From assembly GCA_019237945.1 (NCBI GenBank), contig JAFAOG010000046.1, positions 1 through 41,380 on the forward strand: 41,380 nucleotides of DNA. Direction: 5' to 3'. The translations under genes and the position numbers were made by a program. The stretch comes from Deltaproteobacteria bacterium. GTDB taxonomy: Bacteria > Myxococcota_A > Polyangia > Haliangiales > Haliangiaceae. The notes below the pieces were generated by a model. The model did no database searches. It was given only the letters and a program-made list of their open reading frames with translations, and was not told the origin of the DNA. The stretch's first letter is position 1, and the number at the start of each line of letters is the position of its first letter. Below, piece after piece: positions 17,826 through 35,550 of the stretch.

Positions 17826-19094
17826 GTGGACGAGGAGCCCCGCAGCCTGCGCATCGAGATCGCGCCGCGCACCCTCCTCGCGATCGTGGCCGTCGTCGCG
17901 GGCTGCTACCTGTTCTGGCAGCTGACGAACGTCGTCCTCGTCATCATCGTCGCGCTCGTGCTCGTCGGCACGTTCGATCCGCTCGTCGGCTGGCTCGAGC
18001 ATCGCGGCTGGGGGCGCGGCCGCGCGCTCGCGCTGATCTTCCTGCTCGCCGCGCTCGTGCTCGCCGCCGTGATCATCGCGTCGGTCCCGCCGCTGCTCGC
18101 GCAGCTCCAGCACATCATCGAGGACGCGCCCAACGAGCGCCGCAAGCTCGTCGCGTTCCTCAACCAGTACCGGTGGGCCGCCCCGTTCGTGAAGACGATC
18201 CGCGCCGTGCCGCTCGATGACCTGGTCGTCAAGGCGGGCAACTCGCTGATCGGATACTCGTCCGCGATCCTCGAGATCATCGGCTACGCGGTCACCACGC
18301 TGTTCCTCGCGCTCTACCTGCTCGCCGACCCCGGCCGCGCCAAGTCGCTCGTCTACGCGCTCGTCCCGCGCAACTATCACGTCAAGCTCGCGCGGATCCT
18401 GATCGAGCTCAAGACGATCGTCGGCGGCTACATGCGCGGCCAGCTGATTACCTCGGTCGCGATCACGGTCTTCACGTTCGGCCTGCTGACGATCCTGCGC
18501 GTCGAGGACGCCCTCGCGCTCGCGCTGTTCGCCGGCCTCACCGACGTGATCCCGTTCATCGGTGGCTACGTCGCGTCCGCGCCAGCGATCATCGCGGTCG
18601 CTCCGCAGGGCACGGCCACGATGCTGATCGTCGCGGCGCTGATGTTCCTCTACCAGGAGTTCGAGTCGCGCATCCTCGTGCCGCGCGTCTACGGCCGCAC
18701 GCTCCGCATGTCGCCGGCGATCGTCCTGCTCGCCCTGCTCGTCGGCGGCACGCTGCTCGGCATCCTCGGCGCCCTGCTCGCGCTTCCGATCGCCGCGGGC
18801 CTCAAGATGGTCGTCAGCGAACTGCGCGTCGAGCTGCCGGGCGAGGAGCACCTCGACGCCGAGGTCCGCGCGAGAGACGAGAAAGCCGAGCAAGTCTACG
18901 AGGAGCTCGCCGCGGGCGAACCGGTCGAGAAGGCCGCCGCGATCGCAGGCGAGCTCGCCGCGCGCATCAAGCAGTCCGAACAGCACGGCGGCCGCGTCTC
19001 CGCCGAGCTCGAAGCGATTCGCGAGGTGCGCGCCGAAGAAGAACCCGCCGTCGCGAACGACGCCGCGCACAAGCTCGAAAAGAAGCAGCGATGA
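17826..19094 (+). CDS. AI-2E family transporter (PerM/YdiK-like permease)
   Basis: Inner-membrane permease of 422 aa. Several long hydrophobic helices occur: TLLAIVAVVAGCYLFWQL, VVLVIIVALVLVGTFDPLV and ALALIFLLAALVLAAVIIASV. The typical family region GLTDVIPFIGGYVASAPAIIAV is present, as is the closing block VGGTLLGILGALLALPIAAGLKM. After about residue 340 a charged helical tail (EVRARDEKAEQVYEELAAGEP) extends into the cytoplasm, longer than in most relatives. The family exports varied small molecules or ions; the substrate here cannot be inferred. It overlaps the next gene by four bases (ATGA). Confidence 0.9.
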   Translation: MDEEPRSLRIEIAPRTLLAIVAVVAGCYLFWQLTNVVLVIIVALVLVGTFDPLVGWLEHRGWGRGRALALIFLLAALVLAAVIIASVPPLLAQLQHIIEDAPNERRKLVAFLNQYRWAAPFVKTIRAVPLDDLVVKAGNSLIGYSSAILEIIGYAVTTLFLALYLLADPGRAKSLVYALVPRNYHVKLARILIELKTIVGGYMRGQLITSVAITVFTFGLLTILRVEDALALALFAGLTDVIPFIGGYVASAPAIIAVAPQGTATMLIVAALMFLYQEFESRILVPRVYGRTLRMSPAIVLLALLVGGTLLGILGALLALPIAAGLKMVVSELRVELPGEEHLDAEVRARDEKAEQVYEELAAGEPVEKAAAIAGELAARIKQSEQHGGRVSAELEAIREVRAEEEPAVANDAAHKLEKKQR

Positions 19095-30453: not shown

Positions 30454-32148
30454 TCACTTTCCGACGCTGGGACCCGACAGCGCGACGATGACGCCGGCGA
30501 TCGCGGCCGCCAGCAAGATCACGCCGATCACGATCCACGGCGGGATGCGAAGGCCGGTCTTGGGTGCCGTCTCGAGCCGCGGGCGCTCGGTCGGAAGCTG
30601 CGGAGCGGCAACCTGCTGCGGCGGCGCGGCCGGCATGCGGCCCGACGGCGGGATCGGCTTGCGCGGCGCCGTCGACATCGCCTCGAACGCCGCATCGCTG
30701 CGCACGCTCGGCGGCGGCACGAGCGGTGGTCCCGGCAGGCGGCCGGTCTTCGACGGCGGCGGCAGCGGCGGCGATGCCGAGAGCGGCGCCGACGGCGGCA
30801 GCGGCAGGTTCGGACCGATCAGCGCGGGATCGCTGCCGAGCTGACGCGGCCCCGAGTCGAGCTGGCGCGGCGCCGGCGCGTGATCGAGATCGACGAGCGG
30901 GCGGCTGCCCTCGTTCTCGACGTCCATCATGTTGATGATCGACGTAAGCTCGACGCCGTTGAACCGGTCTATTTCCATCCTGCTGGAGGCCCCCTCGGTC
31001 TTCGGGCGCGGCAGCGGCAGCTTCGGCCGCGAAGGCGTCAGCGGCCGTGGAGGCTTCGGCGGCTTGGCGACCTTCGCTGCGATCGAGTGGACCGACATCG
31101 GCCCGAGATCGAGCTCGTCGTCGTCATCCTCGTCGTCTTCGTCATCGACCGCGTCGTAGATCTCGGTGCCGGCGCGCGCGACGTAGCCGAAGTCCTCGTC
31201 GTCGGCATCCTCGCGCCACTGATCGTTGGGACCGCACGCATCGCGCAGCTCCTTCGCGAGCTCGGGCGCGCTCATCAAGAGACCGTTGCGATGCGCGCAC
31301 CGCATCAACGCCTCCTGCAGCTCGCCGGCGGTCTGGTAGCGCGCGTTCGGATCGATCGCGAGCGCCTTCTGCATGATCGCGTCGAGGTCGGGCGTCAGGC
31401 CCGGCACCTTCTTCGACACCTGCGGCACCGGCTGGCTGTAGATCTCCTCGGCGCTCGTCGTGAGACCCGCGTGCACGAACAGCCGCTCGCCGGTGAGGAT
31501 CTCGTACATGCACACGGCGAGCGAATACAGATCGCTGCGGTGATCGAGCGGCTCGCTCTTCGCCTGCTCCGGCGACATGTAGCCGATCTTTCCCTTCACC
31601 TTGTAGAACAGCGACGTGTGCGTCGCGGCCTTCGCGATGCCGAAGTCGGTCAGCTTCACCTCGCCCGCGTACGACAACAGGATGTTCGACGGCGACACGT
31701 CGCGATGGATCAGCTTGAGCGGCTTGCCCTGGAAGTCGCGCTTCGCATGCGCGTACGCGAGCGCGGAGAGCACCTCGCGCGAGATGTAGATCGCCGCCGC
31801 CGGCGAGAATCGCTTGCCGCGGCGCTTCGCCTTCTTGAGCAGCGTCCGCAGATCGCCGCCCGGCAGGTACTCCATCACGATGAAGTACTCGTTGCCTGCC
31901 GTCACCAGATCGATCGTGTGGACGATGTTTGCGTGATCGAGCGTCGCGGACAGCTTCGCTTCGCGCAGGAACAGGTCGATGAACTCTTCCTGCTGCGTGA
32001 ACTCGGGCAGCAGCTGCTTGAGCACGACCTCCATCTCGAAGCCGCCGGCGCCCATCTTCTTGCCGACGTAGATCGCACCCATCCCGCCCTCGCTGAGGTG
32101 CTCGAGCACCACGTAGCGGTCGATCGGTGCGTCCCCGGCGTGGACCAT
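30454..32148 (-). CDS. Membrane-anchored Ser/Thr protein kinase
   Basis: 564 aa. The Hanks kinase domain begins IDRYVVLEHLSEGGMGAIYVGKK and has VVLKQLL, IHRDVSPSNILL (Asp present; Lys replaced by Ser, frequent in this phylum), LTDFGIAK and GYMSPEQ, so it is likely active. A long acidic then proline-rich linker (DDEDDEDDDDELDLG, and repeated PPLPPPS) leads to one C-terminal membrane helix (PPWIVIGVILLAAAIAGVIVAL) with almost no periplasmic part. ATG 32148 is chosen because TACACT lies eight bases upstream; ATG 32166 would add six residues. The FHA activator gene is next downstream. Confidence 0.93.
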   Translation of the reverse strand: MVHAGDAPIDRYVVLEHLSEGGMGAIYVGKKMGAGGFEMEVVLKQLLPEFTQQEEFIDLFLREAKLSATLDHANIVHTIDLVTAGNEYFIVMEYLPGGDLRTLLKKAKRRGKRFSPAAAIYISREVLSALAYAHAKRDFQGKPLKLIHRDVSPSNILLSYAGEVKLTDFGIAKAATHTSLFYKVKGKIGYMSPEQAKSEPLDHRSDLYSLAVCMYEILTGERLFVHAGLTTSAEEIYSQPVPQVSKKVPGLTPDLDAIMQKALAIDPNARYQTAGELQEALMRCAHRNGLLMSAPELAKELRDACGPNDQWREDADDEDFGYVARAGTEIYDAVDDEDDEDDDDELDLGPMSVHSIAAKVAKPPKPPRPLTPSRPKLPLPRPKTEGASSRMEIDRFNGVELTSIINMMDVENEGSRPLVDLDHAPAPRQLDSGPRQLGSDPALIGPNLPLPPSAPLSASPPLPPPSKTGRLPGPPLVPPPSVRSDAAFEAMSTAPRKPIPPSGRMPAAPPQQVAAPQLPTERPRLETAPKTGLRIPPWIVIGVILLAAAIAGVIVALSGPSVGK

Positions 32149-32156
32149 CCGCGGGC

Positions 32157-32166
32157 AGTGTAACAT
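32157..32166. promoter_or_regulatory. Bidirectional promoter: overlapping -10 boxes TACACT and TAACAT
   Basis: On the minus strand TACACT (32162-32157) lies eight bases before the kinase ATG 32148. On the plus strand TAACAT (32161-32166) lies six bases before GTG 32173. The boxes share the two bases 32161-32162. Only 24 bases separate the two start codons, leaving no room for leaders or Shine-Dalgarno sites. Confidence 0.6.
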
Positions 32167-32172
32167 TGCAGT

Positions 32173-32601
32173 GTGGCCGAGGATCGCTACCGACTCGAGC
32201 CGGTCCGCGACGCGCGCGCACGCGACGAACGCACGCGCAAGTCCGTGCTCGCCGGTGCGATCGCCGATGCGAACAACGCCGACGCGCACCTCACCGCGGC
32301 CCGCGCCCGAACCGAGGCCGCTCGCCTCGCCCTCGCCGCTGCGCTCACCGCCCGCGACGCCACGCCAACGGCCCACGCCCGCGCGCTCGCCGACCGCTTC
32401 GTCAGGCGCCGCCGCCGCGAGCTCGCCGACGCCCGCACGCACGAGCTCGCCGCCGAGGCCGCCCGCGCCGATCACCAGGGCGTCGTCGATGCCGCGCGCC
32501 TGCAGCTCGCCCGCGCCCGCGCCGATCGCGAGGTGATCGAGCGCCACTTCGCGCGCTGGCGCGACGAGCGCAAGAAGGCCGCCGAGCGCCGCGAGGACTA
32601 G
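32173..32601 (+). CDS. Coiled-coil protein, possibly FliJ/YscO-like
   Basis: 142 aa and almost entirely helical. It is Ala/Arg/Glu-rich and starts AEDRYRLEPVRDARARDE, then has long heptad-like stretches (AARARTEAARLALAAALTA and ARADHQGVVDAARLQLARA) and a basic end (RHFARWRDERKKAAERRED). The size, the opening LEPVRDAR-type segment and the antiparallel-coil layout recall the FliJ/YscO stalk proteins of flagella and type III secretion. No secretion gene is nearby, so this is only a suggestion. The GTG start is fixed by a TAACAT hexamer six bases upstream. Confidence 0.6.
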   Translation: MAEDRYRLEPVRDARARDERTRKSVLAGAIADANNADAHLTAARARTEAARLALAAALTARDATPTAHARALADRFVRRRRRELADARTHELAAEAARADHQGVVDAARLQLARARADREVIERHFARWRDERKKAAERRED

Positions 32602-33784: not shown

Positions 33785-34060
33785 ATGCGCATCCTCATCG
33801 CCCTGTTGATCGTCCCCGCCATCGCCGCCGCGAACCCGGCCAAGACCGCCGAGCAGAAGCACAGCGACGACTGCGCCGCCGCGCGCAAGGCGAACAAGAC
33901 CTGCGTCCTCGACATGGGTAAGGAGGAGGTCACCGGTGACAAGCCGGTCGGCACCGGCGTCGGCGTCGCCGTGATCAAGATCGAGAAGGAGCCGAGCATG
34001 ATCTCGATCCGTCGCGACTTCATCGTCGAGATCCTCAAGTCGGCCGAGGATATCGACTAG
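33785..34060 (+). CDS. Small secreted protein
   Basis: 91 aa. Signal peptide MRILIALLIVPAIAAA, then a Lys/Ala-rich stretch with two Cys (DDCAAARKANKTC) and a C-terminal region ending ISIRRDFIVEILKSAEDID. No family recognised. ATG 33785 fits the signal sequence; TGTCTT six bases upstream is a weak -10. Its stop directly abuts the stop of the convergent lipoprotein gene, with no gap. Confidence 0.7.
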   Translation: MRILIALLIVPAIAAANPAKTAEQKHSDDCAAARKANKTCVLDMGKEEVTGDKPVGTGVGVAVIKIEKEPSMISIRRDFIVEILKSAEDID

Positions 34061-34309
34061 CTACTGGCACTCGAGGACGGCCGAGCACGCCTGCTGCTTG
34101 TTCACGCAGTCGGCGTGCTTCTGGACCTTGGCGAGGTTGTCCTGATCCTGCTCGAGCACCGCGCACGCCGCGATGCACTCCTTCTCGTCGAACGGCATGT
34201 CGGCCTTCGTCGAGATCACGCACTCGTACTCGCGCGCGCACACCTGCTTGCACCGCGGACTGCGCGGCTGCGTGCAGGCAACGAGGGCGGCGAGCAACAA
34301 GAACCTCAC
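34061..34309 (-). CDS. Small Cys-rich lipoprotein
   Basis: 82 aa. The N-terminus RFLLLAALVACTQ gives a lipobox at Cys12. The mature part contains seven further Cys: CKQVCAREYEC, ECIAAC, DCVNKQQAC and LEC, spaced like a compact disulfide-stabilised domain. No named family. It starts with GTG 34309, because TATAGT lies exactly six bases upstream and the signal peptide begins there. It is divergent from the MFS gene with 20 bases between start codons. Confidence 0.75.
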   Translation of the reverse strand: MRFLLLAALVACTQPRSPRCKQVCAREYECVISTKADMPFDEKECIAACAVLEQDQDNLAKVQKHADCVNKQQACSAVLECQ

Positions 34310-34315
34310 GCCGTG

Positions 34316-34323
34316 ACTATACT
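34316..34323. promoter_or_regulatory. Bidirectional promoter ACTATACT: shared -10 boxes TATAGT and TATACT
   Basis: The eight bases ACTATACT contain TATACT on the plus strand (34318-34323) and TATAGT on the minus strand (34321-34316), sharing four bases. Each is exactly six bases from its start codon (ATG 34330 and GTG 34309), so both transcripts would begin on their start codons. Confidence 0.7.
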
Positions 34324-34329
34324 GCGCCG

Positions 34330-35550
34330 ATGAACTTGGCGGAGCGGCGATGGCTACGGCTATTCACGCTCGGCCTGTTGTTCTTCGCCCAGGGCATCCC
34401 CTGGGGGTTCATGGCGATCACGCTCTACGGCTACCTCGCCGAGCGCGACGCGAGCCCCGACACGCTCGCGAACATCACGACGGTCACCGTCCTGCCGTTC
34501 GCGTTCAAGTGGGTCGCCGGCCCGATCGTCGACGCGATCTCGAGCAAGCGGTTCGGCCGCCGCCGCCCGTGGATCGTCGGCGCGCAGCTCATGATGGCCG
34601 TGACGCTCGCGTCGCTGCTGTTGCTCGGCGACTTCGGCGACCACCTCGACGCGATGTTCGCGTTGATGTTCGCGCACACCGTGTTCAACGCGCTCCAGAA
34701 CGTCGCGGTCGACGGCCTCGCGATCGACCTGCTCGACAAATCCGAGCGCGGCCGCGCGAGCGGCATCATGTACGGCTCGAAGTTCCTCGGCGGCATGGCG
34801 GGCTCCGCGGGCATCGGCATCGTGGTCGCGCACGCGGGCCTGCGTGCCGGCATCGTCGTCATGGTGATCGTGCTGCTCGCGATCATGCTCGTGCCGCTGT
34901 TCGTCAAGGAGCGCGCGCACGAGGAGCAGCACAAGATGTCGTTCCTCGACACGGTCAAGTCCATCCCGCGCGCGTTCTCGACGCGAGGCGCGCTGATCGC
35001 CGCGCTCGTGATGACCTGGATGAACCTCGCGCTCGGCATGCTCAACCCGGTCTCCGGCGTGCTGTTCATGCAGCACCTGCACTGGAAGCAGGAGGAGTAC
35101 TCGGCGGTGACCGGCGGGTTTGGCCTGCCGGCCGGGTTCGTCGCCTCGCTGTGCGCGGGCTTCCTGGCCGATCTCGTCGGACGTCGCCGGCTCGCCGCGA
35201 TCGCGTGCATCGTCACGGCCGCCGGCTGGCTCGTGTTCGCGTTCAACGATCAGTGGTGGCACCACCACGGCTTCATCTACTTGCTGTCGATGATCGAGCC
35301 GCTCGCGAACGCGACGCTCATCGTCTGCCTGTGGGCCCTCTGCATGGACACGACCGACGCGAAGGTCGGCGCCACCCAGTTCGCGGCGTACACGTCGCTG
35401 ACGAACCTGTCGACCGTCGTCGGCGCCAAGCTGCTCGGCGCGAACGTGCTCTCGTACCTGTCGTTTCAGCAGACGTACATCTTCGCGGCGCTGCTGCAGC
35501 TGGTGATCGTCGGCCTGCTGCCGTTCGTCAAGCCGCGTCAGCGCATGTAG
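34330..35550 (+). CDS. AmpG-like MFS transporter
   Basis: 406 aa inner-membrane carrier with about twelve hydrophobic segments. The opening RRWLRLFTLGLLFFAQGIPWGFMAITLYGYLAERD resembles AmpG and acetyl-CoA transporter (PAT) families. The loop-2 motif FGRRRPWIVGAQ and DLLDKSERGRASGIMYGSKFLGG support this. In AmpG the substrate is anhydromuropeptide from cell-wall turnover; here it is uncertain. ATG 34330 is decided by the TATACT six bases before it and by the basic N-terminus. Its last 13 bases overlap the convergent AgmX-like gene. Confidence 0.88.
   Translation: MNLAERRWLRLFTLGLLFFAQGIPWGFMAITLYGYLAERDASPDTLANITTVTVLPFAFKWVAGPIVDAISSKRFGRRRPWIVGAQLMMAVTLASLLLLGDFGDHLDAMFALMFAHTVFNALQNVAVDGLAIDLLDKSERGRASGIMYGSKFLGGMAGSAGIGIVVAHAGLRAGIVVMVIVLLAIMLVPLFVKERAHEEQHKMSFLDTVKSIPRAFSTRGALIAALVMTWMNLALGMLNPVSGVLFMQHLHWKQEEYSAVTGGFGLPAGFVASLCAGFLADLVGRRRLAAIACIVTAAGWLVFAFNDQWWHHHGFIYLLSMIEPLANATLIVCLWALCMDTTDAKVGATQFAAYTSLTNLSTVVGAKLLGANVLSYLSFQQTYIFAALLQLVIVGLLPFVKPRQRM

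Follow-up and report, generated by a model that had tools for sequence, protein, structure and literature searches.

The 20-bp gap at positions 34310-34329 of the window (the whole stretch of DNA analysed, 41,380 nucleotides long) is probably a leaderless bidirectional promoter, born from the fusion of two leaderless promoters that each belonged to one gene. It lies between a Cys-rich lipoprotein gene and an AmpG-like transporter gene. By joining a bidirectional -10 core to leaderless mRNA, it would form a near-minimal control region for two genes, 20 bp from start codon to start codon. This arrangement is a compact variant of the known two-way promoter that recurs at other gene pairs across this genus of myxobacteria, and comparison shows that such leaderless two-way architecture can be conserved.

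The divergent genes and the gap between them

The features of the region are as follows.

33785..34060, plus strand: small conserved protein of 91 aa with the pattern RRDF..EIL.SAEDID (the 'RRDF' gene), no assigned family; converges on the lipoprotein gene
34061..34309, minus strand: Cys-rich lipoprotein of 82 aa with a MRFLLLAALVAC lipobox, starting at GTG; no family in Pfam or NCBIfam
34310..34329, no strand: divergent intergenic gap of 20 bp, GCCGTGACTATACTGCGCCG, read from the sequence
34316..34323, no strand: pseudo-palindromic core ACTATACT, of the ASTATAST class, as at other divergent pairs
34316..34321, minus strand: predicted -10 box TATAGT of the lipoprotein gene, with predicted +1 at G34309
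34318..34323, plus strand: predicted -10 box TATACT of the AmpG-like gene, with predicted +1 at A34330
34330..35550, plus strand: MFS transporter, AmpG-like, of 406 aa; MFS_1 (PF07690), E 1.7e-32

Both open reading frames flanking the gap are real, as the sequence-only reading had taken them to be: the lipoprotein has orthologs in 15 of the 16 genomes of the genus (its own genome counted), and the transporter matches MFS_1. The best NCBIfam model for the transporter is AmpG (TIGR00901), which it matches with 111.5 bits (E 3.8e-32) against a cut-off of 350 bits. Because this score is under the model's cut-off, the protein is an AmpG-like MFS transporter only and is not assignable as an AmpG muropeptide transporter. 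In most relatives the 'RRDF' gene shares the strand of the lipoprotein gene and lies immediately upstream of it; in the window the lipoprotein gene is inverted relative to it.

Read directly, the gap consists of GCCGTG, the core ACTATACT, and GCGCCG. The two predicted boxes overlap reciprocally on opposite strands and have TATA at 34318-34321 in common. Six bases separate each box from its start codon, which is ATG at 34330-34332 on the plus strand and CAC at 34307-34309, read as GTG, on the minus strand. The earlier description of a 20-bp gap with two -10 boxes sharing four bases and six-base spacings is thus correct to the base, and the near symmetry that it pointed out is borne out by the 6/6 spacing and the pseudo-palindromic core.

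The first T of TANNNT stands at -12 for both genes. In the survey of Zheng et al. 2011 (PMC3160421), leaderless genes are recognised by a TANNNT roughly 12 bp ahead of the start codon. The gap at 34310-34329 contains no Shine-Dalgarno-like stretch when read directly. A sigma-70 scan requiring a -35 element returned no -35-like hexamer on either strand, and because of this the predicted promoter may be very weak. Elsewhere in the window, a second close divergent pair is separated by a 24-bp gap (CATCCGCGGGCAGTGTAACATTGCAGTGTG, within 32146-32175) with TANNNT-type boxes near both starts, an arrangement that could be due to chance.

Leaderless boxes across the genome and the genus

In 485 kb of this genome (G000), TANNNT is followed exactly six bases on by an ATG or GTG that opens a frame of at least 60 aa in 66 cases, about 5-fold over a background of 12.1 taken as the mean at distances 13-30. 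The same excess is found in two relatives within the genus (61 versus 18.2 in G013 and 25 versus 3.6 in G012). The RTC control (ATC or GTC) has no peak at distance 6 after TANNNT in the same samples. Genes predicted to be leaderless are therefore common in this genome, where the class-wide TANNNT signal is present. These genome-wide statistics come from 1.4 Mb of sampled sequence and from pattern searches.

Samples of G000, G012 and G013 (loci L079-L098 and L149-L228) also allow a comparison of initiation signals. TANNNT stands 6-8 bases before the 5'-most starts at a rate of 0.051 versus 0.002 in the control. By a crude test, SD-like sequence precedes the 5'-most starts at a rate of 0.078, barely above the 0.069 of the control, which suggests that many genes of the genus may begin translation without a Shine-Dalgarno sequence. 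The 2011 survey already counts delta-Proteobacteria among the groups with leaderless genes, which make up 15.8% on average in 8 of its 33 genomes of that group (PMC3160421); for Myxococcus, that survey gives no per-species numbers.

The boxes accompany the lipoprotein and AmpG-like genes through differing gene orders. TANNNT lies 6-10 bases before the start in 12 of the 15 lipoprotein orthologs (TATAGT, TATAAT, TATACT, TACACT and others), and the remaining three are without a perfect TANNNT; spacings of 8-10 in some orthologs would imply leaders of a few bases. Eight of the nine AmpG-like genes of the genus that were read directly have TANNNT at 6-8 bases, in the form of TACGCT, TAGGCT, TAAGAT or similar. 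The upstream neighbour of the lipoprotein gene is usually the co-directional 'RRDF' gene and once a transporter gene. It is a divergent AmpG-like gene only in this genome and in one relative, G001.

The same two genes of G001 diverge from a gap of 32 bp (GGACGTAGTGTAGATCAGCTACGCTGCGCAGC), with TACACT on the minus strand six bases and TACGCT on the plus strand seven bases from the starts. The G001 gap lacks a shared TATA core, and in the genus genomes outside these two the lipoprotein and AmpG-like genes are not divergent neighbours. A conserved shared core at this pair is accordingly rejected, since G001 has separate boxes and the other relatives have other gene orders. A relative with a long gap and no TATA core but with both genes in place had been named by the sequence-only reading as evidence against its proposal, and G001 fits that description in part: the length and the shared TATA are not kept in G001, while each gene retains its own box six or seven bases off. 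The overlap at the lipoprotein/AmpG-like pair is therefore lineage-specific, either recent or private to this genome, and the putative leaderless boxes are old.

The retention of a box by each gene when the two are apart, the separate boxes of the divergent pair in G001, and the co-directional neighbour of the lipoprotein gene in most relatives also favour a neutral origin. On that account, two independent leaderless promoters came to abut after a rearrangement, and their overlap has no regulatory role. We give this account slightly better than an even chance. The confidence placed in it overlaps with that placed in a fused bidirectional promoter because the two agree on origin and differ only on the function of the overlap. 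Against strict neutrality stands the PEGA/MSF gene pair described below, whose shared palindromic core is kept in about ten species and indicates that such an overlap can be maintained.

Recurrence and conservation of two-sided cores

The exact geometry CAY-N6-ANTATANT-N6-RTG occurs at 10 sites in 30 genomes of the family, against 1 in a control in which the codons are swapped to GAY/RTC. Of these 10 sites, nine belong to the genus, and most are flanked by two clear ORFs in divergent orientation. When ASTATAST sites are found by a one-sided core, the upstream CAY stands at 6, 7 or 8 in 23 of 38, out of 21 possible distances (0-20). A looser form sharing only TA gives 275 sites versus 89 for the control in 16 genomes. 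In the phylum, the 6-8/6-8 form gives 67/284 genomes versus 25 for the control; like the other site counts, this one spans related species with repeated orthologous sites, and nominal P values are not to be taken literally.

Because of this excess of two-sided geometry over the control, together with the excess of TANNNT-6-RTG, the shared-core geometry at the lipoprotein/AmpG-like pair is not chance. The gap spectrum is treated as suggestive only: some contigs of G000 and G012 were chosen from control matches, which inflates its control count of 6 (2 in the systematically taken pieces of G013). An 18-bp register, CAY-N5-TANNNTA-N5-RTG, was expected to be the commonest form and is rejected, with 12 sites versus 9 RTC sites in the genus and only about a 2-fold excess in the family.

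A strongly conserved case joins a PEGA-domain protein (PF08308) to a protein of about 90 aa with the pattern MSFPWLD.. ('MSF').

G000:C37, about 19044-19070: PEGA/MSF site (L114), with orthologs L100, L109-L111, L115-L119 and L131

In ten species these two genes diverge, 20-21 bp apart. Their core is the perfectly palindromic AGTATACT, or AGTATAAT in one species, with a spacing of 6/6 or 6/7 to the starts. In an alignment of 12 sequences/species, the core is 98% identical versus 52% for 20 flanking bases. The core is kept in G011, where the partner has been replaced, and in G015 the spacing is kept by the small gene only. PEGA/MSF is a better test case than the lipoprotein/AmpG-like pair, and the recurrence of the architecture together with this conservation is more interesting than the lipoprotein/AmpG-like pair itself.

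A second recurring pair, diiron-like/SBP_bac_3, keeps ACTATACT both in G011, with a gap of 20 bp, and in G006, with one of 22 bp. This genome also contains a third two-sided ASTATAST site (L130, G000:C41:21400-21426), which lies between two long ORFs that diverge and has AGTATACT at a 6/7 spacing. Tentatively, and with less than even confidence, leaderless bidirectional promoters with palindromic ASTATAST cores 6-8 bp from two start codons may be a selected, recurring device of this Myxococcota genus that couples or balances divergent pairs. The device would have lasted for long at some pairs (PEGA/MSF) and have arisen recently at others (lipoprotein/AmpG-like).

It is unlikely that only one direction of the lipoprotein/AmpG-like gap is a real promoter and that the other merely resembles one through the near-palindromic nature of a TATA-type -10 box. 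TATAnT does overlap itself on the opposite strand, such that one box makes half of the other, and the lipoprotein gene of G007 is preceded by ACTATAAT, which is symmetric in its core and has no convincing divergent gene. Yet both genes carry boxes when separated, both start codons here are at a distance of six, and two-sided sites lie far above the RTC control. An incidental AT-rich core in a gap with no promoter, the genes being served by upstream promoters with long leaders, would suit the missing -35 element but is very improbable, given that the DNA upstream of each gene is the coding sequence of the other, that no Shine-Dalgarno sequence is present, and that the TANNNT-6-RTG peak is genome-wide and the boxes are conserved.

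Proposed mechanism and known systems

Support at the level of sequence extends to the geometry, the genome-wide signature, the gene-linked boxes, the recurrence and the PEGA/MSF conservation. The actual start sites, the sigma factor, leaderless translation, use in two directions and any coupling are what we infer for a leaderless bidirectional promoter at 34310-34329. The housekeeping sigma factor would bind the pseudo-symmetrical ACTATACT in either orientation and the same DNA would be opened. RNA would start at A34330 on the plus strand or at G34309 on the minus strand, the positions where the two start codons begin. Both mRNAs would then have no 5' leader and would be translated without Shine-Dalgarno pairing. 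The promoter would have originated when two genes, each with its own leaderless -10 box, were brought into a head-to-head arrangement in which these boxes fused.

The sequence-only reading had further proposed that the pair is transcribed alternately from one melted core, with both messages leaderless. The leaderless shared-core part of this is well supported by the sequence comparison: each box behaves like a leaderless -10 element, and a single melted core could serve either direction. Strict alternation is rejected as unsupported: the five E. coli bidirectional promoters tested have a basal activity too low for polymerases to compete, and one direction is repressed only when the opposite direction is strongly activated (PMC12825309). 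Steric constraints make it physically likely that polymerases facing opposite ways exclude each other when they bind. Alternating expression would not be expected here unless one direction were strongly activated.

Enterobacteria have an established class of bidirectional promoters whose -10 elements are shared (PMC12825309, PMC10268837). As defined by Warman, Grainger and colleagues, their divergent starts lie 7-25 bp apart, most commonly 18 and also 10 or 23, and 24% of E. coli bidirectional promoters yield two mRNAs (PMC10268837, PMC12825309). The predicted starts at the lipoprotein/AmpG-like gap, 21 bp apart, fall within this definition, and this spacing is the one that results when TATAnT overlaps itself. 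The gap resembles the symmetrical -10 promoters of these studies in its reciprocally overlapping -10 boxes, its predicted start spacing and its divergent genes, as at acrA/acrR. It differs from them in its 4-bp TATA overlap, in a predicted spacing that is not among the commonest, and in having no -35 element; both transcripts are predicted to be leaderless, and the whole gap would thus be promoter core. A literature search found no paper joining leaderless and bidirectional promoters, and one may still exist. The recurring sites form a natural set for testing how polymerase chooses its orientation free of leader or -35 confounders.

The gap also resembles TANNNT leaderless genes (PMC3160421), including those of M. 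tuberculosis (PMC3898074), in its box, in the position of that box relative to the start codon and in having no Shine-Dalgarno sequence. Surveys of leaderless genes consider each gene singly, whereas here two predicted leaderless genes share one box.
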